From Marinobacter sp. X15-166B (GTDB lineage: Bacteria; Pseudomonadota; Gammaproteobacteria; Pseudomonadales; Oleiphilaceae), in assembly GCF_001752365.1 (NCBI RefSeq), contig NZ_MEIY01000001.1, positions 1,881,569-1,945,568 of the forward strand: a stretch of DNA of 64,000 bases. The letters run 5' to 3'. A program made the position numbers and the translations under genes. Of the stretch, positions 18,868 to 64,000 are shown piece after piece. Under the pieces are notes generated by a model that searched no databases, was not told the origin of the DNA, and saw only the letters and a program-made list of their open reading frames with translations. How positions within the stretch are numbered: position 1 is the first letter of the stretch; every line of letters starts with the position of its first letter.

Positions 18868-19066
18868 GCTATTTGGGGAGGAAAAAGTGCGCTTGTTCAG
18901 CGCCCCCGAAAAGAACCGGGATTTGGTTTTTCAGGCGAATGATCCGGTGGGGTGTCCAGATACGAACTGTAACGAAGTTTGGCGTTTAAAATCATTATAC
19001 TCCAGCCGTATTGCGGCCTTTTCAAACAATAATTGACAGGCGATTTGTTTGTCCGGCGACCCGATT

Positions 19067-19918
19067 ATGACAGATGTTCCCAACTCCCCGGCGGACGACA
19101 CCGCTTTAAATGAGCAGCTCGAGCGTGTAAACCGTCAGCTGCTGCAGTCAGAAAAAATGGCGGCCATCGGTCAGCTGGCGGCGGGCGTGGCCCATGAGAT
19201 CAACAACCCCATCGGCTACGTCTACTCCAACCTGCAGAGTCTGGATCGATACCTGGTCGACATGTTCCGGTTGACCGATGCGATCGGTTCGGCATCGACG
19301 CAGGAAGAGCTGGAGGAACTCAAACAGAGCATTGACTATGAGTTTTTGCGCGGCGATCTGGAAGATCTGGTGGCCGAGTCCCGCGAGGGCATCGAGCGGG
19401 TCAAAACCATTATAACGACCCTCATGGATTTTACCCACGCGGATGAAGAAGAATTCAAACTTGCCGATATTCACTGGGGCATCAACACCACGCTTAGCGT
19501 GATCAATAACGAGATCAAGTATAAAGCGGAGGTGGTGAAAGACTTCGGCGACTTGCCGTTGGTGTCCTGCATTATTTCCCAGATCAATCAGGTGATCCTG
19601 AACCTGCTCGCCAACGCCGCCCACTCCATCGAAGGGTTTGGCAAAATCATCGTACGCACCCGGCACGAAAGTAACTACGTCGTTATTGATGTGGAAGATA
19701 CCGGTAAAGGTATTTCCCAGGAACACATCAATAAAGTATTTGATCCCTTCTTCACCACCAAGCCTATCGGCGAGGGCACCGGTCTCGGGTTGTCATTGTC
19801 TTTCAGTATTGTCGAGAAACATAACGGTCGCATTGACGTAACGAGTACCCCGGGCAAAGGCACCTGTTTTCGTATCATTCTGCCCATTGGCACTTCCGAT
19901 ACCGGCCGTTGTTCCTGA
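19067..19918 (+). CDS. Soluble sensor histidine kinase (HisKA/HATPase)
   Basis: The 283-residue cytosolic kinase has no membrane segment. It has a short N-terminal coiled helix, an H-box with GVAHEINNP (phosphoacceptor His43), an N-box INQVILNLLANAAHSIE, and G-boxes DTGKGIS and GTGLGLSLS. The ATPase domain is complete. ATG 19067 is chosen; a TTG at 19049 with an AGG before it is possible and adds six residues. It leads the signalling cluster, and the next gene starts 6 nt later. The input is not evident. Confidence 0.88.
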   Translation: MTDVPNSPADDTALNEQLERVNRQLLQSEKMAAIGQLAAGVAHEINNPIGYVYSNLQSLDRYLVDMFRLTDAIGSASTQEELEELKQSIDYEFLRGDLEDLVAESREGIERVKTIITTLMDFTHADEEEFKLADIHWGINTTLSVINNEIKYKAEVVKDFGDLPLVSCIISQINQVILNLLANAAHSIEGFGKIIVRTRHESNYVVIDVEDTGKGISQEHINKVFDPFFTTKPIGEGTGLGLSLSFSIVEKHNGRIDVTSTPGKGTCFRIILPIGTSDTGRCS

Positions 19919-19924
19919 TACCTC

Positions 19925-21301
19925 ATGGACATTAATTACTCCGACGTTGACACTCTCCCGTCGCAGCCGCCAGCCAAGGCGCGGTTGTTGCTGGTGGACG
20001 ATGAAGAAAATATTTTACGCAGCCTGCACCGGGTCATGCGTCGGGAGCCTTATGAGCTGGCGTTTGCCCGGTCCGGAGAAGAGGCGTTGCAGCGGCTGGC
20101 CACCGAAACCTTTGATCTGGTGATTTCCGACGCCCATATGCCGGGGATCAGTGGCCCGGATCTGCTGGCACGCATCAAACAGAAGTACCCGGGGTGCATC
20201 CGCATCCTGTTGACCGGGTACACCGACCTGGCCTCTACCATCGCCGCCATTAATGAAGGTCAGATTTACCGGTATATCAGCAAGCCGTGGGAAGAGGACG
20301 AGTTGCGTTTAACGGTACGGCAGGCGCTGGCCTTTCAGTACTCCGAACGTCGCCGGCTGGCATTGGAGCAATTGACCCGCGCCCAGAATCAGGAACTGCA
20401 GGTCTTGAATGCGACCCTCGAGGATAAGGTGCGGGCGCGCACCGAAGAGCTCGAGCAAACGGCCGGTATGCTCGATCTTGCCTATCAGGAGTTACGGCAG
20501 AGTTACACCACCGCAGCTGAAGTTTTTTCTGCGCTGATCAACAAGCGGTTGCCGGCCAAGCGCCAACCGAACGCCAAAGTGATCGCCCTGGTGAAGGCGT
20601 TTGCTGAGCACTGCCAGCTGGACAGTGCCCTCACCTGGGATGTAACCATGGCGGCGGCGCTCTACAACCTCGGCAAACTGAGCTGGCCGGACCAGATGAT
20701 TGAAACGCCCTCGGAATTAATGGGCAAAGTGCAGCGCGAAGAGTATCAGCGCTACCCCGTCACCGGTGAGAAGCTGCTGATGGCGCTGGAACCGCTGAGA
20801 AATGCGGCCTGTATCATCCGCCACCATCAGGAGCGCTGGAGTGGAAAAGGTGTGCCCGACCAGCTTGCGGGCGAGCAAATTCCGCTGGGGGCCCGTGTGC
20901 TGAAACTGGCAGTTGACTTCGTCGAATTTCAGTTCGGATTGATCCTCGAGCGCAAGGTATCCCGGGAGGACGCGATCACACTTGTCGGACGCTACAAAGG
21001 ACTCGTGTACGACCCTGAAATGGCGGATCAGTTTCTGCAGATGATTGTTCAGCAGGCCCCGGATGTGGAAGGTTACGACCCAGCCATTCTGCGCCTGGAC
21101 ACCTTGCGCGTGACCCCGGGCATGGTGCTGGCGCGGAACCTGTACGCCGCCTCGGGGATGCTGTTGCTTAATGAAGGGAAGGTGCTGACTGCATCACTGA
21201 TTGAAAAACTGACCGCGTTTGAGCAAAACGAGCCGAATGGGCTGCGCTATGAGCTGTATGTGTATCCCCCTGAGAACGAGGAAAAGGAGACTGCCTCATG
21301 A
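19925..21301 (+). CDS. Response regulator: receiver plus degenerate HD-GYP-like domain
   Basis: The 458-residue protein begins with a receiver (VDDEEN, phosphoacceptor Asp69, KPW near residue 120). A coiled-coil linker follows (about 140-185), then a domain shaped like HD-GYP c-di-GMP phosphodiesterases. The catalytic HD is replaced by Tyr247-Asn248 (YNLGK instead of HDxGK), and the HHERWDGxGYP motif reads HHQERWSGKGVP with His300-His301 kept. Hydrolysis is therefore doubtful; a sensor or scaffold role is possible. It overlaps the next gene by 4 bp (ATGA). Confidence 0.85.
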   Translation: MDINYSDVDTLPSQPPAKARLLLVDDEENILRSLHRVMRREPYELAFARSGEEALQRLATETFDLVISDAHMPGISGPDLLARIKQKYPGCIRILLTGYTDLASTIAAINEGQIYRYISKPWEEDELRLTVRQALAFQYSERRRLALEQLTRAQNQELQVLNATLEDKVRARTEELEQTAGMLDLAYQELRQSYTTAAEVFSALINKRLPAKRQPNAKVIALVKAFAEHCQLDSALTWDVTMAAALYNLGKLSWPDQMIETPSELMGKVQREEYQRYPVTGEKLLMALEPLRNAACIIRHHQERWSGKGVPDQLAGEQIPLGARVLKLAVDFVEFQFGLILERKVSREDAITLVGRYKGLVYDPEMADQFLQMIVQQAPDVEGYDPAILRLDTLRVTPGMVLARNLYAASGMLLLNEGKVLTASLIEKLTAFEQNEPNGLRYELYVYPPENEEKETAS

Positions 21302-21825
21302 TCAAGATTCAGTTGGTAGACGATGAGCCCAATATTTTGAAGGCCCTCAAACGCCTGTTGAAGGCACAAGGCTGGGAGGTGGATGCCTACGACAACGTGG
21401 ACGACGCGCTCGGCGGGCTGCTGGCACACGATTACGCGGTCATAGTGTCGGATTATCTGATGCCCGCGGTGGATGGCGTCACCTATCTGCAATTTGCCAA
21501 ACAGCGCCGTCCGGATGCAATGCGGCTGGTGCTCACGGCCCACGGTGACCGGCAATCGGTTATCAAAGCGATCAATCAGGCAGAGGTCTACCGGTACCTG
21601 ACCAAACCCTGGAACGACTATGAAATCGTGGCTGCGATTCAGTCGGCGGTAGAACTCCACCAGCTGGTGCGCGAGAACCACCGGCTGCTCCAGACGGTGG
21701 CGACCCAAAAAGCAATGCTGCAAGCGCGGGAGCAGGAACTGCAGCGGCTGGAAGCAGAACATCCCGGGATCACCCAGGTGTTGCGGGATACCGAGGGTTC
21801 GATTCTTGTCGGTGATGACAGCTGA
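21298..21825 (+). CDS. Single-domain response regulator with helical tail
   Basis: The 175-residue protein has a receiver (QLVDDEPN, phosphoacceptor Asp52, KPWND) and a C-terminal coiled-coil of about 50 residues (ENHRLLQTVATQKAML and onward). There is no DNA-binding or enzyme domain, so it probably acts by protein contact. The receiver has the same AINxxxVYRYLTKPW pattern as its neighbours. It is translationally coupled to the preceding gene by a 4-bp overlap. Confidence 0.85.
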   Translation: MIKIQLVDDEPNILKALKRLLKAQGWEVDAYDNVDDALGGLLAHDYAVIVSDYLMPAVDGVTYLQFAKQRRPDAMRLVLTAHGDRQSVIKAINQAEVYRYLTKPWNDYEIVAAIQSAVELHQLVRENHRLLQTVATQKAMLQAREQELQRLEAEHPGITQVLRDTEGSILVGDDS

Positions 21826-21839
21826 ACAGGTAAGGCGCC

Positions 21840-22508
21840 ATGGCCGTATACAACAAGAAAGCGTGCAAACTCACCTTGAAGGTGGTGTTCTACGGGCCCG
21901 CTCTGAGTGGTAAAACCACCAATCTGATGCAATTGCATTCTTTGCTCCATCCGGAGCGCATGGGTGAGCTGATGGTGCTGGAAACCCGAGGCGATCGTAC
22001 CCTGTTTTTTGACATGCTGCCCATCGGTTTGCGGGCAGCCTCGGGACTGGATCTGCGGTTGAAACTGTTCACAGTACCCGGCCAGGTTCAGCATGACAGT
22101 ACCCGCAAGGCAGTGCTGTCGCGGGCCAATGCGGTTGTCTTTGTCGCTGATTCCAAGGTATCCGCGCAGGACAGCAACGCGGCCGCCTTCGGCGATCTGG
22201 AGGACAATCTGGATAAGGTGGGGCTCGATATCGAAACCTTGCCCTTGGTCATTCAGTTTAACAAACGGGACGTTGGCGCTGTGGTGCCAGAGGACGAGCT
22301 GCAGCAATGCTGGGCGCACACCCCCTGGGCACCGTTAACCATGGCCTCGGCGCTGCAGGGTGATGGGGTGATCGAAACCTTTCGCCGGCTGCTCGACCGA
22401 TTGTACACCAGCGCGGACGCAGAGTTTTCATTAGCCCGAGACCATGGCATCGATCGCGAAACCTTTATCGCGCGCCTGAGCGCCCGGCATGGGGTCGCCT
22501 GTGCGTAA
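21840..22508 (+). CDS. MglA-like small Ras-family GTPase
   Basis: The 222-residue protein has a P-loop GPALSGKTT (residues 19-27), the switch-region sequence FFDMLPIGL, the G3 motif TVPGQ typical of bacterial MglA rather than DxxG, and G4 NKRD. MglA in Myxococcus sets the polarity of type IV pili and gliding machinery together with the roadblock protein MglB. No roadblock/LC7 GAP gene is visible next to it. It sits between a receiver and a kinase, which suggests control by phosphorelay partners (inference). Confidence 0.88.
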   Translation: MAVYNKKACKLTLKVVFYGPALSGKTTNLMQLHSLLHPERMGELMVLETRGDRTLFFDMLPIGLRAASGLDLRLKLFTVPGQVQHDSTRKAVLSRANAVVFVADSKVSAQDSNAAAFGDLEDNLDKVGLDIETLPLVIQFNKRDVGAVVPEDELQQCWAHTPWAPLTMASALQGDGVIETFRRLLDRLYTSADAEFSLARDHGIDRETFIARLSARHGVACA

Positions 22509-23661
22509 TTTTGAAGACGATCCCCATCTCGACGACTTGCTGACCCACGCACAGCAGGAGCAGTTGAATGACATACTGAGCCGCTTGTGTCAGGTCCCGG
22601 TGGTGCTGCGGGAGCGCCAGACGGGGGGACGGCACACCGGTGGAGTTCAATCTGGAAACCATTGGCTGGCTCTCAGGCGGGCGCTCCGAGGAAGAGCAGG
22701 GCGCAGTTGCCGAGTTGGTGTCGTTTTTGCTGATGTTCATTGCCAAGTACCGGTGGGCGGCCAATCTTCATCTTGATGTCACGGCGGCCAGCTACGACGA
22801 ACTGCAGCAAAAAAATGAGGCATTGCAAGCGTCCGAGGCGCGTTATCGGCAACTGTCAGACGAACTGCAGTGCAAAGTCGACGAGCAGGTCAGGGTGGTG
22901 CAGCGTACCCAGCAGGAACTCTACGAGTCTGCGCATATGCGCTCCGTTGGGCAGCTGGCGGCCGGGGTGGCCCACGAAATCAACAACCCCGTGGGGTTCA
23001 TCCGCAGTAACCTTGGGGTGGCCCGGGATTACGTGGATGTATTGGAGGGATCATTGCCGGAGGGGCACGGCAAACACGGTCTGCTTGCCGACTTTCGTGA
23101 CCTGTTGGCGGAATCCATGGACGGCACCCGGCGAATTGCCGGTATCGTTGCGGACCTGAAAACGTTTTCCAGCATTGACCAGCATGAATTTACGCGCTGC
23201 CGTATCAATGAGCTGTTGCTCAGTGCGGTGAATCTGGTGCAGGCCGAATACGGACATCAGCTGAATGTGACCGACCGTCTGGATGACCAGTCGGTTGTCA
23301 ACGGGTCACCGTCACGCCTGGCGCAAGCCTTTTTCAATCTGCTCGAAAATGCCGCCCAAGCGCTGGACGCGGCCGGAACGGGTCAGGGGGGGGGCAGATA
23401 TTGCTGCGCACCCAGGTGAGTCATGGACGGGTGCAGGTGACGATTCAGGACAATGGCTGTGGCATCCCGGATGCGGTTCGCGCGCAGGTGTTTGATGCGT
23501 TTTTTACCACACGCCCGGTGGGTGCTGGTACCGGGTTGGGGCTGACGGTCGCCCGTGATATCGTGCACATGCATCATGGTACGCTGCAACTTGACAGCCA
23601 GGAAGGGGGCGGCACACGGGTGACCCTCAGTCTGCCATTGGCCGAGGGTCAGAGGACATGA
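22489..23661 (+). pseudogene. Soluble histidine kinase, disrupted by two homopolymer frameshifts
   Basis: Three reading frames join into one kinase of about 390 residues. The N-terminal part runs from ATG 22489 to a G6 run (22623-22628); removing one G continues TGDGTPVEFNLETIGW. The middle part has a coiled helix and GVAHEINNPVG with an N-box LAQAFFNLLENAAQALD, and ends at a G9 run (23386-23394); seven or ten G would continue into the ATPase G-boxes (DNGCGIP, GTGLGLTVA) up to 23661. All kinase motifs survive across the breaks. It may be intact in reality (sequence error) or switched by slippage. It overlaps both neighbours, as an intact operon gene would. Confidence 0.8.
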
Positions 23662-25913
23662 ACCGTCGCTACGCATCCCTGTTCAACCGTGATTCATCGG
23701 GGCAAGACGCACCACCTGCGGCACAAAAAAAGCGGGCCCCTTACCGGTTGCTGTTTGTGGATGACGAGCCCAACATCCTCGCCGCCATGGCCCGGGTGTT
23801 TCAGCGTGAAAACTACGAATTGCTGTTCGCCGGCAGCGGCCAGGAAGCCCTGGCGACTATGGACAAGAAACCGGTGCATCTGATCGTCACCGATTTTCTG
23901 ATGCCGCGCATGACCGGCAGTGAGTTGCTGCGGGAAGTGCGTGAGCGCTGGCCGCAGACCATCCGTGTGATGCTCACCGGCCACGCCAATACCGACGCGG
24001 TGATGGGGTCGGTCGCAGACGGGGCGGTGTATCGGTTTATCCTCAAACCCTGGAACGATGACGAGCTTCGGGTGACCATCGCGCTGGCTCTGGAGCAGTA
24101 TCAGCTGATTCAGCTGTCCCGCAAGCTGACCGAACAAAACCGGAGCCAGGGTCGGGATCTGGAAACCATCAGCAAACTGACCGCCACCAACCGCAGTCCG
24201 CTGGCGATACTGCTCCATAAAAAAGCCTGGCTGGATTCACAGCAAATCCAGCAACTGCACCGGGAAATGCAGAGTCAGAAAACACCGGTGGTCCGACAGT
24301 TGCTGCAACACGAATGGGTCGATTTCCAGCGCATGTTCGAGATGCTGCGGGATGACATGCTGTTTGAGACCGTTGAGCTGGCGGAAGCGCAGCCAGACCC
24401 GGCATTGCTGTCCTTGATTCCGCAAAACATCTGTATGCGCCAGATGGTCCTGCCCTTGCGGCTAAACGGGCCACGCTTACGCCTCGCCATGGTGGATCCG
24501 ATGGACATCCACCTGATCGACGAACTGGGGTTCATGACGGGGTACAGCATTCACCCTCTGTTGTGCGAAACCGCGCAGATGCAGCAAAAACTGGCGGAAA
24601 TTTTTGGCGGAGCAGACCAACTCGACGACATCGCGACGCAAGTCAGCACCGAGGATCCTTACGAAGGGATCGAGATAGTACTGGACGACGAATCCGATCA
24701 GGAATCCCTGGAGCAGTTGCTGGGCAGCTCAGAGGAACCGCCGGCGATACGTCTGGTCAACGCCATTATCCTGGAGGCCCTGCGTCTCAGAGCCAGTGAC
24801 ATTCACGTGCACCCGCGCACGAAATCCCTGGTGGTGCGTTACCGGATCGACGGTGTGTTGCAGGATAAGATACACATCCCCTCGAACCTGTTGATGTCGG
24901 TCGTATCCCGCATCAAAGTGATGGCAGAGCTGGACATCACCGAGCGCCGCAAACCCCAGGACGGTCGTATCACGGTCAAAACACCCATGCGCATTGTCGA
25001 TCTGCGCATCTCCACCCTGCCAACGATCAACGGTGAGAAGGTGGTGATGCGGGTACTGGAACGCCAGTCCTCTGCCCAGTCGCTGGCCGATCTGGGGTTA
25101 TCCGCCCACAATTTGCAACGCTTGAAGCATGTAGTGGCCAAACCCCAGGGCATCATTCTGGCGACCGGACCAACCGGCAGCGGCAAAACCACCACCCTCT
25201 ATGCCTTGCTGCAGCATAATGCCTCCGCCGAGCGGAACTACGTCACCATTGAAGATCCGGTGGAATTCCACGTGGACATGGCCGGGCAAGTGCCGGTGAA
25301 GGAACGCATCGGATTGAGTTTTGCCAGCATTCTGCGCGCCATTCTGCGCCAGGACCCCGATGTCATTTTGCTGGGCGAGATCCGCGACGAAGAAACCGCT
25401 GATGTTGCTTTTCATGCGGCCATGACCGGGCATCTGGTCTATTCCACCTTGCACACCGGTTCGGCGGCAACCACCGTAGCCCGCTTGCTGGACCTGGGGC
25501 TGAAACCGTTTGTACTGGCGTCTGCCCTCGAAGCCATAGTAGCACAGCGCCTGTTGCGCAGAATCTGCAGTCTCTGCCGTGAGGAAGTCCCGCCACCGAC
25601 GGAGGTGCTCGCTCAGCTTGGTCCCCGGTTTATGGACGCCGAACTTACTTTCTATCGCGGTCAGGGGTGCGATCAATGCCACCAAGGGTATCGGGGCCGG
25701 GTAGCAATCCACGAGGTGTTGACCATAAGTGAAGAGCTGCGGGTCGCGATCATGGAGGGTGCCAGTGCCATGCAGATCGAAACCATCGCCCGTGACCGGG
25801 GGATGCGGGTGCTGCTGGACGACGCCCTGGAAAAATTACGTGACGGGCTCACCACCGCGGACGAAGTGTTGCGTTTGCTGGGGCCCCAGATTCTCGAGGC
25901 CGAGCACCTGTAA
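23658..25913 (+). CDS. Receiver domain fused to a PilB/GspE-type secretion ATPase
   Basis: The 751-residue protein starts with a receiver (VDDEPN, phosphoacceptor Asp79, KPWND). A GspE/PilB N-terminal-like region follows (about 190-330), then the type II/IV secretion ATPase core. Walker A GPTGSGKTTT starts at Gly504; the core continues with the Asp box DPDVILLGEIRDEET, the His box STLHTGSAATT and a tetracysteine zinc motif CSLC..CDQC. The core looks fully active. Such ATPases power pilus assembly or type II secretion, yet no pilin or secretin gene lies nearby. It overlaps the kinase by 4 bp. Confidence 0.9.
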   Translation: MNRRYASLFNRDSSGQDAPPAAQKKRAPYRLLFVDDEPNILAAMARVFQRENYELLFAGSGQEALATMDKKPVHLIVTDFLMPRMTGSELLREVRERWPQTIRVMLTGHANTDAVMGSVADGAVYRFILKPWNDDELRVTIALALEQYQLIQLSRKLTEQNRSQGRDLETISKLTATNRSPLAILLHKKAWLDSQQIQQLHREMQSQKTPVVRQLLQHEWVDFQRMFEMLRDDMLFETVELAEAQPDPALLSLIPQNICMRQMVLPLRLNGPRLRLAMVDPMDIHLIDELGFMTGYSIHPLLCETAQMQQKLAEIFGGADQLDDIATQVSTEDPYEGIEIVLDDESDQESLEQLLGSSEEPPAIRLVNAIILEALRLRASDIHVHPRTKSLVVRYRIDGVLQDKIHIPSNLLMSVVSRIKVMAELDITERRKPQDGRITVKTPMRIVDLRISTLPTINGEKVVMRVLERQSSAQSLADLGLSAHNLQRLKHVVAKPQGIILATGPTGSGKTTTLYALLQHNASAERNYVTIEDPVEFHVDMAGQVPVKERIGLSFASILRAILRQDPDVILLGEIRDEETADVAFHAAMTGHLVYSTLHTGSAATTVARLLDLGLKPFVLASALEAIVAQRLLRRICSLCREEVPPPTEVLAQLGPRFMDAELTFYRGQGCDQCHQGYRGRVAIHEVLTISEELRVAIMEGASAMQIETIARDRGMRVLLDDALEKLRDGLTTADEVLRLLGPQILEAEHL

Positions 25914-26009
25914 TGGATGAGTGGGAGCGGCTGTAGCTGAACCCCGTGGCCAGATAATAACCGACCGATGTGACCGTAAGGGCGCTGCTTCAATAAAAGC
26001 ACGGACAAT

Positions 26010-28907
26010 GTGACTGTGACCAATCCTGAATCCTGCAATATGACCGAAACCAATCCTGAACTCTGCGTTCTGCTTATTGATGATGACGAGCAGGACTATC
26101 AAGTTATCCGCAATCAGCTGCAACATACCGATCGTGGCATGTTTCGGCTGATATGGCGAAACACTGCCGCGGCGGGCCTTGCGGCCTTGCGAGCTGAGGC
26201 GGTTGACGTTGTTCTGGCCGGTCAGCGGCTGGGTACGGATGGCGTCCAGAGCCTGATCCAGAAGGCGCGCAGTGAGGGCCTGACCACGCCCTTCATTTTG
26301 CTGCTTGGTCTGCAAGGCGGGGACCTGCACGCTCGGATCGCGGCGCTGGGAGCCAGCGACTATTTGCGCAAAGAGTATCTCGGCGGCCCGGACCTCATAT
26401 CTCGAGTTCTCCATGCCGTTGAACAGGCCGCTGCCATTGCCCAGTTTTCTGATAGCGAAGCCCAATACCGCTTACTGTTTGAAAGCTCACCCGCTCCCAA
26501 GTGTCTGGTGGAGCCGCAGTCGGGCCGTGTTCTCAGCATGAACGCCGCCGCACAACGGCTTTATGGTTACGGAGGCGGCGTTCGCAGCATCGCCGGGCTC
26601 AGGTGGGGCGATTTGTGTGTGGATCCCAGCCCGGGCGGCACGGTCATCGATGGGGTGGTGCTGCAGGCGGGCGCCACACTGGAATTGCATCGCACCTCTT
26701 CCGGTCAGGAGCTCTTCGTAGAAGTATTGGCCGCGCCCATAGTAATCAATCGCCGCGCGCGGAGCCTGCGGGTGTTGAAAGATCTGACCCAACAGGTGGC
26801 CCATAGCCAGCAGTTGCGCTTGTTCAAACGCTGTATCGAGGCCAGTTCTAACGGCATCATTATCGCCGATGCCCGCCAGCCCGACATGCCGGTGGTCTAT
26901 GTGAACCCGAGTTTTGAGCGTATTACCGGGTATGACCGGGCAGAAGTGCAGGGCCGTAACTGCCGGTTTCTGCAGCATGACCACGCAGACCCCATGAACG
27001 AGCCGGCCCTGGCAGACATTCGCAAGGCGCTGAAAGAAGGTACGGAAGTGTCCGGGGTGCTGCGCAACTATCGCAAGGATGGCAGCACCTTCTGGAACGA
27101 GTTGTACCTGACACCGGTAACAGACGATACGGGACAGCTGACCCATGTTGTGGGTATTCAGAATGATATTTCCGCGCGCCGGGATATCGAACAAAGGCTC
27201 GCCTATCACATCAGCCATGATCTGGTCACCCGTCTGCCGAATCGCATGCTGCTGGAAGACCGCCTGCCTCAGGCCTGCCAGTTTGCCCGTCGCCATGGCC
27301 GGCACATCGGTGTGTTAATGGTAGGGCTTGACGGGTTCGAACAGATCAATGGCGCTTTTGGTCATCGTGTCGGAGACCAGGTGCTGGTGGAAACCGCCCG
27401 GCGGTTAATGGCATTGGTGCGCTCCGGGGATACCGTCGCCCGGATCAATGGGGATGAGTTTGTGGTTCTGCTGACCGATCTGGCGCAGCCCCGGGATATC
27501 ATGATCCCCGTCGAAAAAATGCATCTGGAACTGGCGCGACCTTACCGGCTGGGGTCCGAGACCGTTCATTTGACGGCGTGTATTGGCATTACGGTGAGCG
27601 ATGCCAGCCCTGAGCGACCTATGGAGCTGGTGCAACAGGCCAGCCTGGCCATGGTGCGTGCCAAACAGACCGGTAAAAATATCAATCAGTGGTTTTGTGA
27701 AGATTTCAATGCTGAAACCAGCCTGCGAATGAAGCTTCGCAATGAGTTACAGTCCGCAATCAACAAACAGACGCTTACCCTCCATTACCAACCGATTATT
27801 AATGCCCAAACCGGGCGGGTTGAATATGTGGAAGCGCTGGCCCGCTGGCCCCACCCCGTGCGCGGCATGCTCGAGCCGGCGGAATTTATTCCGCTGGCGG
27901 AGGAAACCGGCCAGATTGTCGAGCTTGGTACCCTGGTGTTGAATCAGGCCTGCCGGGACATCGCGGCGTTGCACGAGGCGGGGTTCAGAGACTGTGCCGT
28001 TGCGGTGAATGTGTCACCCAAACAGATTCAAAAACCCGGTTTTCCGGACGTCGTCAGCCGTGCCCTGAAGGCTAATGGCCTTACCCCAGAGGCGCTTGAA
28101 CTGGAAACCGTGGAATCGGCGTTGCTCAATTACACCGACCGGGCGGTACAGACACTCCATGAATTGCGTGACCTCGGGGTGCGGATCGCCATTGATGATT
28201 TCGGTACCGGATTTTCCAGTCTCAGCTACATCAAGCTGTTGCCGGTGAGCAAGATCAAAATTGACCGTTCGTTTGTCAAGGATGTGATCCACAGTCCGAG
28301 CGATGCGGCGATTACCCAGAGCGTCATATCCATGGGGCATCACCTGTCGTTGGTGGTGGTGGCAGAGGGCGTGGAAACCGAAGCACAAGCGGCCTTTTTG
28401 CGCCGCCAGAAGTGCGACCTGCTGCAGGGGTTTGTCTTTGCCCGGCCCATGCCCTTTGCAGAGCTCAAACGCTATTTGAGCAGCAGCAGGGCTGTTGCCG
28501 GCGGTCATAGCGTCATTGAAGGAGAGGTGCAGAAAACCTTATTGCTGCTGGATGATGAAGAAAACATTCTGCGGGCGCTTAACCGTGTATTGCGTCGTGA
28601 CGGGTATCGCATACTATCGACCACCAGCGTTCAGGAAGCCTTTAATCTGCTGGCCGAAAACGAAGTCCAGGTGATTCTCTCCGACCAGCGGATGGCCGAG
28701 ATGTCGGGCACGGAGTTTTTCCGCCAGGTGAAGGAGCTGTACCCCAACACCGTCAGGATTGTGCTGTCCGGATACACAGATCTGCGGTCGGTCACCGAGG
28801 CGATTAACCAGGGGGCGATCTATCGGTTCGTGACCAAACCCTGGGATGACCGTCAGATTCGCGAGCACATTCAACAGGCGTTCCGCTACCGCGAAGGCTT
28901 GCACTAA
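26010..28907 (+). CDS. Pseudo-receiver / PAS / LOV / GGDEF / EAL / receiver protein
   Basis: The 965-residue protein has, in order: a receiver-like domain (about 18-140) without an acceptor Asp (VVLAGQRL); a weak PAS domain (150-265); a LOV-type PAS with GRNCRFLQ, whose Cys318 is the residue that bonds flavin in blue light; a GGDEF domain with the altered motif RINGDEF (478-484), probably poor as a cyclase; an EAL domain with EALARW (from Glu608), DDFGTG and AEGVETE intact, predicted to hydrolyse c-di-GMP; and a C-terminal receiver (acceptor Asp892, KPWDD). The layout recalls FimX with added light input. It lies 96 bp after the ATPase gene. Confidence 0.87.
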   Translation: MTVTNPESCNMTETNPELCVLLIDDDEQDYQVIRNQLQHTDRGMFRLIWRNTAAAGLAALRAEAVDVVLAGQRLGTDGVQSLIQKARSEGLTTPFILLLGLQGGDLHARIAALGASDYLRKEYLGGPDLISRVLHAVEQAAAIAQFSDSEAQYRLLFESSPAPKCLVEPQSGRVLSMNAAAQRLYGYGGGVRSIAGLRWGDLCVDPSPGGTVIDGVVLQAGATLELHRTSSGQELFVEVLAAPIVINRRARSLRVLKDLTQQVAHSQQLRLFKRCIEASSNGIIIADARQPDMPVVYVNPSFERITGYDRAEVQGRNCRFLQHDHADPMNEPALADIRKALKEGTEVSGVLRNYRKDGSTFWNELYLTPVTDDTGQLTHVVGIQNDISARRDIEQRLAYHISHDLVTRLPNRMLLEDRLPQACQFARRHGRHIGVLMVGLDGFEQINGAFGHRVGDQVLVETARRLMALVRSGDTVARINGDEFVVLLTDLAQPRDIMIPVEKMHLELARPYRLGSETVHLTACIGITVSDASPERPMELVQQASLAMVRAKQTGKNINQWFCEDFNAETSLRMKLRNELQSAINKQTLTLHYQPIINAQTGRVEYVEALARWPHPVRGMLEPAEFIPLAEETGQIVELGTLVLNQACRDIAALHEAGFRDCAVAVNVSPKQIQKPGFPDVVSRALKANGLTPEALELETVESALLNYTDRAVQTLHELRDLGVRIAIDDFGTGFSSLSYIKLLPVSKIKIDRSFVKDVIHSPSDAAITQSVISMGHHLSLVVVAEGVETEAQAAFLRRQKCDLLQGFVFARPMPFAELKRYLSSSRAVAGGHSVIEGEVQKTLLLLDDEENILRALNRVLRRDGYRILSTTSVQEAFNLLAENEVQVILSDQRMAEMSGTEFFRQVKELYPNTVRIVLSGYTDLRSVTEAINQGAIYRFVTKPWDDRQIREHIQQAFRYREGLH

Positions 28908-28921
28908 ACGGGAGGGCGGTT

Positions 28922-30349
28922 TCAGTCGTCGGCCCCCTGACGGTCGTCCAGCCCCAGCTCGCCAAGTTTGCGGGTCAGGGTATTCCGGCCCCAGCCCAGC
29001 AGCAGTGCCGCGTCTTTTTTGCGGCCGCCGGTCTGCTGCAGGGCCGCTTCCATCAGAATGCGCTCGAACTGGGGCAGTGCCGTGGTGAGCAGGTTGCTGT
29101 GGCCTCGGCTGAACTCCAGACGGGCCCAGTCCCCCAGGTATTGGTGCCAAAGCTGACCGTCGGTGGCCGGGTCCGCCGGTTGGCGCAACTCGGCCGGTAA
29201 GTCATCGATATGGACCTCACGGCCGCTGGCCATCACCGTCAGCCAGCGACAGGTGTTTTCCAGCTGGCGCACGTTGCCGGGCCAGGGCAGGGCACACAGG
29301 TAGGCCTCGGTATCCGCGCGCAGTATTTTAGGCTCGACGGACAGTTCCATGGCGGCCCGTTGCAGAAAATGCTGGATCAGCTGCGGGATGTCCTCCCGCC
29401 GCTCCGCCAGGGTGGGCAGGTGCATACGGATCACGTTCAGGCGGTGAAACAGGTCTTCACGAAACGAGCCTTGCTGTACCAGTTGCTCCAGATCCTGATG
29501 GGTCGCCGCGATGATGCGTACATCCACTTTGATCGGGGTGGTGCCGCCAACGCGGTAGAATTCGCTGTCCGCCAGCACACGCAGCAGGCGTGTCTGGGTC
29601 TCGGCCGGCATGTCGCCAATCTCATCCAGAAACAGGGTGCCGCCGCTGGCCTGTTCGAAACGGCCGTGCCGTACCCCCGTTGCCCCGGTAAACGCCCCCT
29701 TTTCATGACCGAACAGTTCCGACTCGATCAATTCCTTCGGTATGGCCGCCATGTTCAGGGCGATAAACGGCTCCCGGGCGCGGGGACTGTGGTTGTGCAG
29801 TGCCCGGGCCACCAGTTCTTTACCGGTGCCGCTCTGGCCGTTAATCAGCACCGTGATGTTGGAGTGGGACAGCCGGCCGATCGCCCGAAACACCGCCTGC
29901 ATGGCGGGTGCCGCGCCGATGATGTCCGTGGCGGGTAAGGGGGGCTCATGCTGGCTTTCCCGGTGCTTGCGTTGCTCGCGGCGGTGGGCAATTGCCCGTT
30001 TGACCAGGGCCACCGCGTCATCCACATCGAAGGGCTTGGGAAGGTAGTCGAACGCGCCGGATTGATAACTGCTGACCGCGCTTTCCAGGTCGGAGTGGGC
30101 CGTCATGATGATCACCGGCAGGTCCGGGTGGGCGGCGGCCAGCTCGGCCAGCAGGGTGATGCCGTCGATACCGGGCATGCGGATATCACTGAGGATCGCA
30201 TCCGGTTGTTGCTGCTCCAGCAGGCCAGGGATGGTGTCGCCCCGCTCAAACACGCGGCAGGCGAGACCGGCCTGGGTCAGGGCACGCTCCAGTACCCAGC
30301 GAATGCTGCGGTCATCGTCGATGACCCACACCTGTTCCGTTGCGGTCAT
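28922..30349 (-). CDS. ntrC: Nitrogen regulation response regulator NtrC
   Basis: NtrC is the sigma-54 activator of nitrogen-limitation genes. The 475-residue product has a receiver ([18 protein letters not shown]), an AAA+ domain with Walker [18 protein letters not shown], the GAFTGA loop that touches sigma-54, and a Fis-type helix-turn-helix at the end ([21 protein letters not shown]). ATG 30349 overlaps the ntrB stop by 4 bp; a longer frame would extend back into ntrB. It converges with the LOV gene, only 14 bp away. Confidence 0.97.
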
Positions 30350-31422
30350 GGGGTGTCCTCCAGGGGCAGGAAAATCATAAAGTCCGTCTCGCCGGGCACA
30401 CTCTCGCACTCCACCAGTCCGCGGTGCTGACCAATAATGCTCTGGGTGATGGCGAGACCCAGCCCGGTACCCTGGGCCCGACCACTGATCATGGGGTAAA
30501 AAATATTCTGCAGTAAGGCGGCGGGTATGCCCGGGCCATTGTCGATGATATCGATGCGACAGACCAGCCGGTGGGGGGTGTGGCCAATGGTGAACTGACG
30601 CAGGGCGCGAGTCCGGAAGGTGATGGTGGGGCGCGCCCCGGCGGCGGGGTGGTCGAATTCGAAGGCGGCTTCCATGGCGTTCCGGGCGATGTTGAGCACG
30701 GCCTGAATCAATTGCTCCCGGTCCCCGGGAAACTCCGGCAGGCTGGGGTCATAATCCCGCTTGAAGACAAGGCGGTCACCGGCTTCGGCTTCCAGCAATG
30801 CCCGCACCCGCTCCAGCACTTCATGAATGTTGGTCGGCGTCAGGTTGAGCGCGCGGTTGGGGCCCAGCATGCGATCCACCAGGCTGCGCAAGCGGTCCAC
30901 CTCGTCCATGATCACCTGGGTATACTCTTGCTGTGCAGGGCTGAGTTCGCGCTGCAGCAACTGGGCCGCCCCGCGAATGCCCCCCAGAGGGTTCTTGATT
31001 TCGTGGGCCATGCCCCGCACCAGAATACGGCTGGCGGCTTGCTGCGCGAGTATGTCCTCTTCGCGGATGATGCGCAGCAGCCGGTCCCGGGATTGCACCT
31101 CCATCAGCAGCAGGGGCTGGTCGGTGCCCAGGGGCATGACGGAGTAATCGACGATCATGCTGGTGCCCGTGGTGAGCAGTAACTCTGTCTCGCGCCGGGT
31201 GTAGGACTGGCCGCTGGTGGCGGCGGCGCGCAGGGTTGCGCGGGTTTCCGTGGCATCTGCCAGCAGCTCAGCCAGAGCGCAGCCGGCCGCCCGGGTCAGG
31301 CTGGTTTCGAACAGGTTTTCGGCGGCCGGGTTCAGGTATTGAATGACCAGCTGGGGGTCCAGCACCAGCACCGACGTCGTCAGATGTTCGATGAGCTGCA
31401 TGTGTTCCGCAGGCGCTGCCAT
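30346..31422 (-). CDS. ntrB: Nitrogen regulation sensor kinase NtrB
   Basis: NtrB phosphorylates or dephosphorylates NtrC under PII control. The 358-residue product has a PAS domain (about 15-120), an H-box with GMAHEIKNPLGGIRGAAQLL, an N-box and G-boxes DNGPGIP and GTGLGLAI. No membrane helix is present. AAGGAG lies 5 nt before the ATG at 31422, which is preferred to a TTG at 31446. It is coupled to ntrC by overlap and follows the DUF4124 gene. Confidence 0.96.
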   Translation of the reverse strand: MAAPAEHMQLIEHLTTSVLVLDPQLVIQYLNPAAENLFETSLTRAAGCALAELLADATETRATLRAAATSGQSYTRRETELLLTTGTSMIVDYSVMPLGTDQPLLLMEVQSRDRLLRIIREEDILAQQAASRILVRGMAHEIKNPLGGIRGAAQLLQRELSPAQQEYTQVIMDEVDRLRSLVDRMLGPNRALNLTPTNIHEVLERVRALLEAEAGDRLVFKRDYDPSLPEFPGDREQLIQAVLNIARNAMEAAFEFDHPAAGARPTITFRTRALRQFTIGHTPHRLVCRIDIIDNGPGIPAALLQNIFYPMISGRAQGTGLGLAITQSIIGQHRGLVECESVPGETDFMIFLPLEDTP

Positions 31423-31503
31423 GACGCTCCTTGCAAACGGTGTCAAAAGGACAGCATAAACCGAAACGCGTTCGAATGGTGCGTCAGTTGCCTCGAATGA
31501 GGG

Positions 31504-62992: not shown

Positions 62993-63006
62993 GATTTTTC
63001 GCGTCT

Positions 63007-63090
63007 TGACGGGGTGCTGGCAACTGGCCGGCTGAGATTGCACTGCAGAACCCGAATACCTGATCCGGATAATGCCGGCGTAGGAATATG
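63007..63090 (+). ncRNA. TPP riboswitch (thi box)
   Basis: The sequence shows the conserved TPP aptamer parts in order: GGGGTGC at 63011, GGCTGAGA, ACCC, and then ACCTGATCCGGATAATGCCGGCGTAGG. These pair as the P1-P5 arms. TPP binding would lower thiC expression. The 120 nt from here to ATG 63212 has a GCTGC/GCAGC hairpin but no clear terminator, so control may be at translation (inference). Confidence 0.95.
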
Positions 63091-63091
63091 A

Positions 63092-64000
<909 letters not shown>

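Follow-up and report, generated by a model that had tools for sequence, protein, structure and literature searches.

Small GTPases steer pili and polarity in Myxococcus. A cluster of seven genes in Marinobacter sp. X15-166B, at positions 19067–28907 of a 64,000-nucleotide stretch (hereafter the window) of its 3.49-Mb, 99.94% complete genome, brings an MglA-type GTPase together with histidine kinases, receivers and a PilB/GspE-type ATPase, and can be set beside five described systems. According to the cited sections of the literature, the MglA/MglB/RomR and SofG modules of Myxococcus xanthus tie a Group 1 MglA GTPase to response regulators and to PilB/PilT pili (PMC4316618, PMC3441718, PMC11580455); unlike these modules, the Marinobacter cluster has no adjoining MglB, its kinase, receivers and ATPase are encoded in one conserved cluster, and the ATPase itself bears a receiver. 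Streptomyces conservons (CvnA kinase, CvnB, CvnC and CvnD GTPase) likewise co-encode a kinase and an MglA-type GTPase, but in the cited sections they are described with Group 2 GTPases, an MglB homologue, no response regulator and no receiver-ATPase (PMC4316618). The FimX–PilZ–PilB system, as outlined in the sources, combines a REC-PAS-GGDEF-EAL protein with a PilB-type ATPase (PMC10333796, PMC5595344); the likeness is one of architecture, and here the EAL domain is intact, a LOV domain and a second receiver are added, and the ATPase carries a receiver itself. The MshE-type ATPases, which the cited text describes as binding cyclic di-GMP (c-di-GMP), share the MshEN and T2SSE architecture (PMC5013675), but the cluster ATPase has a degenerate c-di-GMP motif and an added N-terminal receiver. 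Finally, NosK–NosR, in the part of the source considered here, pairs a kinase lacking a recognised sensor domain with a receiver protein carrying a degenerate HD-GYP domain (PMC12570481), and the corresponding protein here matches the NosR-family model NF053512; unlike that system, no NosP gene is among the seven, and the pair is linked with a GTPase and an ATPase.

We read the cluster as encoding a spare extension ATPase that serves a type IVa pilus platform and is gated by a GTPase and by phosphorylation, and put the probability of this reading at about 0.5. The cluster would represent a variant of MglA-regulated surface machinery, the newest piece of which is the unnamed N-terminal domain of one of its kinases, HK2. 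No cluster of MglA, kinase, receiver and PilB was found described in open-access papers, judged by title and the start of the abstract, with subscription papers outside the scope of the search.

A gene order shared by several phyla

The core of the cluster consists of three adjoining genes, which encode an MglA-family small GTPase of Group 1 type (21840–22508; R53, TVPGQ and NKRD), the histidine kinase HK2 (22501–23661) and, by Pfam and NCBIfam matches, a REC-MshEN-T2SSE protein, that is, a PilB/GspE-type ATPase with an N-terminal receiver (23658–25913). Of 163 family genomes, 46 have a relative of the GTPase, as have 8 of 369 genomes sampled across the class, the own genome being counted in both. 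The genes for the GTPase, the kinase and the receiver-ATPase are consecutive and in the same order in all 43 other family loci; these come from the 45 further GTPase-positive genomes of the family, less G008 and G010. Six of the seven class loci hold the trio as well, the seventh (L097, genome G198) lacking the ATPase and matching the GTPase only in part. Across a wider set of 80 named loci, drawn from at least 575 GTPase relatives and covering gamma- and betaproteobacteria, Geobacter, other deltaproteobacterial lineages, Nitrospirota and unclassified metagenome-assembled genomes, the trio adjoins in 71, adjacency here meaning a kinase match followed by an ATPase match that starts within about 2.9 kb; Marinobacter genomes occur in both the family and the named sets, so that the counts overlap. 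The remaining nine named loci comprise six that end at contig edges, two with a displaced ATPase (L162 and L174) and one without an ATPase (L110). An earlier reading made from the DNA alone (the sequence-only reading) had proposed this comparison and would have abandoned the idea of a joint system had the neighbours failed to co-occur in other genomes; they do co-occur, in an order that is conserved across phyla. In the 53 of the 80 named loci with three full open reading frames (ORFs), the distance matrices of the GTPase, HK2 and the ATPase correlate with r values of 0.88–0.94, against 0.19 for the best of 999 shuffles, a co-variation that speaks to joint inheritance and not to contact.

Around this core, the first kinase (HK1), the REC-HD-GYP protein and the stand-alone receiver are frequent but movable companions. 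Clustering of the 973 ORFs of at least 100 residues around the 80 named loci gave, among its 25 largest clusters, kinases, ATPase, GTPase, REC-HD-GYP and REC as the biggest; ten scanned representatives of smaller clusters were EamA and MatE transporters, GGDEF, MCP, aldehyde dehydrogenase, a PAS/GAF kinase, DUF6901 (three) and one unmatched protein, and the smaller clusters beyond these ten include several antisense ORFs. A DUF6901 protein lies near the cluster in six of the 80 named loci, in different genera (L104:5294–6049, L107:4974–5687, L113:13149–13859 and three more). By manual count, 36 of the 43 family loci have an EAL-protein match downstream on the same strand at 4–9 kb. In many Marinobacter relatives the ATPase and EAL genes are separated by a multi-PAS kinase region and a small receiver, both absent here. 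ATPase-like matches elsewhere in the loci are uninterpretable, because the receiver of the query matches other receivers. We also considered spread by plasmids and set it aside: four plasmid records match the ATPase, none with more than 80% coverage and all with less than 60% identity.

An orphan GTPase and its neighbouring kinase

Among PDB structures the GTPase matches MglA (E 2e-38), and its nearest relatives among the matches listed are Marinobacter proteins (79% to M. pelagius). Group 1 MglA proteins are marked, in the cited sections, by an arginine beside the G2 threonine and by TVPGQ in G3 (PMC4316618). The cluster GTPase has both features; R53, T54 and TVPG are invariant in 79 of 79 sequences and Q82 is kept in 78 of 79. 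The same source, in the sections at hand, gives a coupled MglB as usual and not obligatory (390 of 449 MglA members) and Group 1 neighbourhoods as widely variable (PMC4316618). A Robl_LC7 match, indicative of Roadblock/MglB proteins, is absent from the own genome and from 43 of 52 GTPase-positive genomes, and a small local Roadblock profile of low sensitivity found none among the 973 ORFs around the named loci. In the usage of that source, as far as its cited sections define it, the cluster GTPase is on sequence grounds an orphan MglA. The GTPase-positive genomes that do carry Roadblock proteins are G048, G064, G067, G068, G072, G106, G122, G141 and G411.

HK2, whose gene overlaps that of the GTPase, is split in this assembly by two frame changes, next to a G6 run (about 22623) and a G9 run (23386), the latter being the longest homopolymer of the window; its relatives have a single intact frame. 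The breaks may reflect an assembly error, a pseudogene or a variable tract, and in the assembly real damage and a sequencing error would look alike. The N-terminal 110–140 residues match a credible Pfam family in none of 33 relatives and form a domain that is conserved in L128, L125, L136 and other relatives. The best Pfam match among the 33 domains, FBPase_glpX, came from a single member (E 0.0009) and was taken as chance. AlphaFold predicts a confident small alpha/beta domain for the relative in L128 (pLDDT 91.9), for which VIA-align returned Z values of 6.0–6.8 to MglB chains and 6.9 to a Ragulator chain, all within the range that the tool calls unspecific; the full HK2 model gave, among the matches listed, matches to the kinase core only.

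The receiver-ATPase, its platform and the accompanying genes

The ATPase belongs to the Type II/IV secretion ATPase superfamily (PF00437 T2SSE domain, 431 bits). Comparison of 60 of the 80 named loci with the window protein shows that the receiver Asp79, Walker A and Walker B E574/D577 are present in 61 of 61 sequences and the zinc cysteines in 60–61 of 61; the conservation of the Walker motifs and cysteines argues for active ATP hydrolysis. The protein scores 558.2 bits over the whole profile of the PilB model TIGR02538 and 539.3 bits against the GspE model TIGR02533, under the respective cut-offs of 675.65 and 630.25, and its best PDB match is PilB.

The own genome encodes four full-length T2SSE ATPases and two shorter ones, presumably of the retraction type, but two platform proteins. 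One platform protein adjoins a PilB-type ATPase in a type IVa pilus locus, with a PilD-size gene alongside, and the other adjoins GspE in a GspD-to-N-like row resembling a type II secretion system (T2SS); both places are far from the cluster, and the genes there are named by their order and size and by matches for the ATPases and platform proteins rather than by scanning each gene for its family. Since four full-length ATPases face two platforms, the cluster ATPase is left without a platform. A second orphan MshEN-T2SSE ATPase, without a receiver or a nearby platform gene, is encoded at about 3.467 Mb of the own genome (contig C1, L083:7292–9082). Of 50 genomes with named GTPase loci, 46 have a PilC-like platform protein (E≤1e-75), as do 276 of the 369 class genomes; the comparison is suggestive, but phylogeny and genome size confound it. 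With the threshold relaxed to E≤1e-10, some platform match is found in every one of the 50. This survey queried 50 of the 80 named loci, one of which (L110) lacks the ATPase. In Vreelandella nanhaiensis (L106, genome G531), a carrier of the GTPase locus, the sole platform match is PilC-like. The whole-length model being nearer to PilB, the PilC survey and V. nanhaiensis together therefore favour the type IVa pilus over secretion as the target platform, although we would still give this assignment only an even chance.

The sequence-only reading had pointed to a shared Y-R-(Y/F)-x-x-K-P-W pattern in receivers of four of the seven proteins and had suggested a receiver phylogeny; the pattern is indeed found in four of seven, and in a tree of 34 receivers (five from the cluster and 29 of the 45 others, taken from the best-scoring loci) the four form a clade with a support of 0.96. 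The fifth cluster receiver, the degenerate N-terminal one of the EAL protein, is placed outside this clade. At the DNA level, the YR(Y/F)xxKPW pattern occurs four times in the genome, which has 50 receiver matches in total, and all four occurrences are inside the cluster, with none for a reversed control pattern. Their sequences suggest that the four may form a private receiver family whose members can share kinases. One of them is the stand-alone receiver with a C-terminal tail (21298–21825; YRYLTKPW). HK1, encoded from an ATG at 19067 (or a TTG at 19049) to 19918, is a soluble HisKA-HATPase_c histidine kinase in which Pfam and NCBIfam recognise no sensor domain; its best NCBIfam model is NF038348 T2SS_HK, at 307 bits and under the cut-off of 450.

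The motifs of the second-messenger domains are mixed. The REC-HD-GYP protein (19925–21301) passes the NosR-family model NF053512 (522.8 bits, cut-off 400), and its HD pair is replaced by YN (AALYNLGK) and its GYP by GVP (GKGVP), so that the features of an HD-GYP phosphodiesterase are missing, while some relatives retain HHxExxDGxGYP. These motifs do not support c-di-GMP hydrolysis by the protein, contrary to the earlier suggestion that it handles c-di-GMP. Receptors of the MshE type have, in the cited sections, two RLGxx..G..Q motifs in MshEN (PMC5013675). Both halves of the MshEN domain in the window ATPase, with the motif placed by us, lack the Arg, the first Gly, the central Gly and the Gln, and most of the 61 ATPases have a degenerate second half; c-di-GMP sensing by the ATPase is likewise not supported by its motifs. 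The last gene (26010–28907) encodes a REC-PAS-LOV-GGDEF-EAL-REC protein (P0008) in which the first receiver is degenerate, the C-terminal receiver carries YRFVTKPW, GGDEF reads NGDEF and the EAL motif is intact (EALARW, by inspection). LOV domains carry the signature GxNCRFLQ with its flavin-binding Cys, and GRNCRFLQ is present in the second PAS domain of this protein, which is of the LOV type; against the YtvA-family model the protein scores 130 bits, under the cut-off of 250. With its EAL motif intact, it lies outside the FimX family, which has degenerate GGDEF and EAL domains in the cited sections (PMC10333796). The LOV signature occurs in 26 of the 43 family loci and 15 of the 80 named loci, some loci being cut before or inside that gene, and because only part of the loci have it, light input seems to have been added within one branch, outside the core.

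All seven genes are co-oriented on the plus strand, as the sequence-only reading had them. Three junctions overlap, by 4 bp (REC-HD-GYP/REC), 8 bp (GTPase/HK2) and 4 bp (HK2/ATPase), a range of 4–8 bp in place of the 4–20 bp claimed before; the others are gaps of 6 bp, 14 bp and, before the EAL gene, 96 bp, so that the EAL gene may be less tightly coupled. Scans for promoter-like sites (1 versus 4.6 expected) and terminator-like sites (15 versus 10.6 expected) were uninformative, and Rfam at gathering threshold gave no match inside the cluster. A sigma-54 response regulator and a PAS histidine kinase form a pair on the minus strand (28922–31446) that converges on the cluster, and a TPP riboswitch (RF00059, 61.5 bits) lies at 63000–63104 of the window.

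Proposed mechanism and alternatives

From this arrangement we infer phosphotransfer, contact between the GTPase and HK2, a target machine and a phenotype along the following lines. HK1 and HK2, and other kinases in relatives, would phosphorylate the private set of closely related receivers, and because one of these is fused to the PilB/GspE-type ATPase, phosphorylation would gate the ATPase. The MglA-type GTPase, encoded beside HK2 and the ATPase and with no MglB gene alongside, would control the place and time of ATPase action, the N-terminal domain of HK2 being the probable link. The ATPase would serve a platform that already exists, with PilC of the type IVa pilus the likeliest one, as an extension motor of an alternative or modulating kind, and in the gammaproteobacterial branch the LOV-GGDEF-EAL protein would add a blue-light and c-di-GMP input. 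The sequence-only reading had proposed a self-contained, light-responsive relay that controls a motor or secretion ATPase. What survives of it is a conserved module joining an MglA-family GTPase, kinases and a receiver-PilB/GspE ATPase; light input does not appear to belong to the core, and the relay is not self-contained, as relatives of the own PilC/GspF proteins (E≤1e-6) occur in none of 130 loci (80 named, 43 family and 7 class).

That missing platform gene is also the first of several points that weigh against a gated pilus motor. The ATPase core is 47.7% identical to the own PilB and 47.9% to the own GspE, a platform match is universal in the family (163 of 163 genomes), four of the 50 surveyed genomes miss the E≤1e-75 PilC threshold, and the PilC comparison carries the confounding described above. 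Nine of the 52 GTPase-positive genomes have Roadblock proteins, one or two each. Litchfieldella qijiaojingensis (L110) keeps the GTPase and HK2 with no ATPase found and the LOV-GGDEF-EAL protein directly after, and HK2 is broken in the present assembly. For the N-terminal domain of HK2, Foldseek gave no match at E≤0.001 and ranks the CodY GAF domain first (E 0.02) and MglB 22nd (E 0.21), VIA-align ties the roadblock fold with GAF folds (CodY 7.2, DevS 6.6), and an hhalign profile comparison with six Roadblock proteins was negative. The predicted domain thus bears a weak resemblance to both GAF and roadblock/MglB folds; because the fold and profile comparisons are unspecific or negative, its role as a candidate reader of the GTPase is a hypothesis from context. 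It is doubtful that the domain is a built-in MglB-like reader, possibly a GTPase-activating protein, that stands in for MglB in a GTPase-to-two-component-to-motor relay common to several phyla, in which the GTPase switch would be turned directly into phosphorylation of the pilus-type ATPase.

The near-equal core identities would also suit an ATPase that powers or modulates type II secretion through the GspF platform, or another type-II-like machine, with the signalling logic unchanged, as would the GspD-to-N-like row of the own genome, with its GspE- and GspF-type matches, and the T2SS_HK name of the best model of HK1, albeit under its cut-off. We consider this unlikely, since the whole-length PilB model outscores that of GspE, the best PDB match is PilB and the Vreelandella carrier has a PilC-like platform only. 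Slightly more improbable is an ATPase that serves as a signalling output and not as an active motor, either as a phosphate sink or, under control by phosphorylation, as a competitor or localisation partner of PilB/GspE: a receiver fused ahead of an ATPase without its own platform could be explained in this way, but the intact Walker A, Walker B Glu/Asp and zinc cysteines speak against it.

We hold it to be similarly improbable that the module is decaying in this strain, with HK2 a pseudogene and the system dead here though working in relatives. The two frame changes and the absence of the multi-PAS kinase region of many Marinobacter relatives fit such decay, but both breaks are at G-runs, a common place for sequencing errors, and the other six genes are open. 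That unrelated two-component genes have clustered loosely or by chance, with no joint function, is hardly credible: signalling genes do often cluster, the last gene follows a 96-bp gap and the promoter scan does not help, but the same order across phyla, the gene overlaps, the co-variation and the private receiver clade oppose this, and the locus counts largely refute it.

The cluster bears on how orphan MglA proteins act outside Myxococcus and on how they are regulated without MglB. It provides a compact set of genes, in cultured species that include Stutzerimonas azotifigens and Geomonas edaphica, in which a motor ATPase is apparently controlled via its own phosphorylation site, and it makes testable the kinase of the ATPase, the partner of the GTPase and the swapping of extension motors on one pilus machine.

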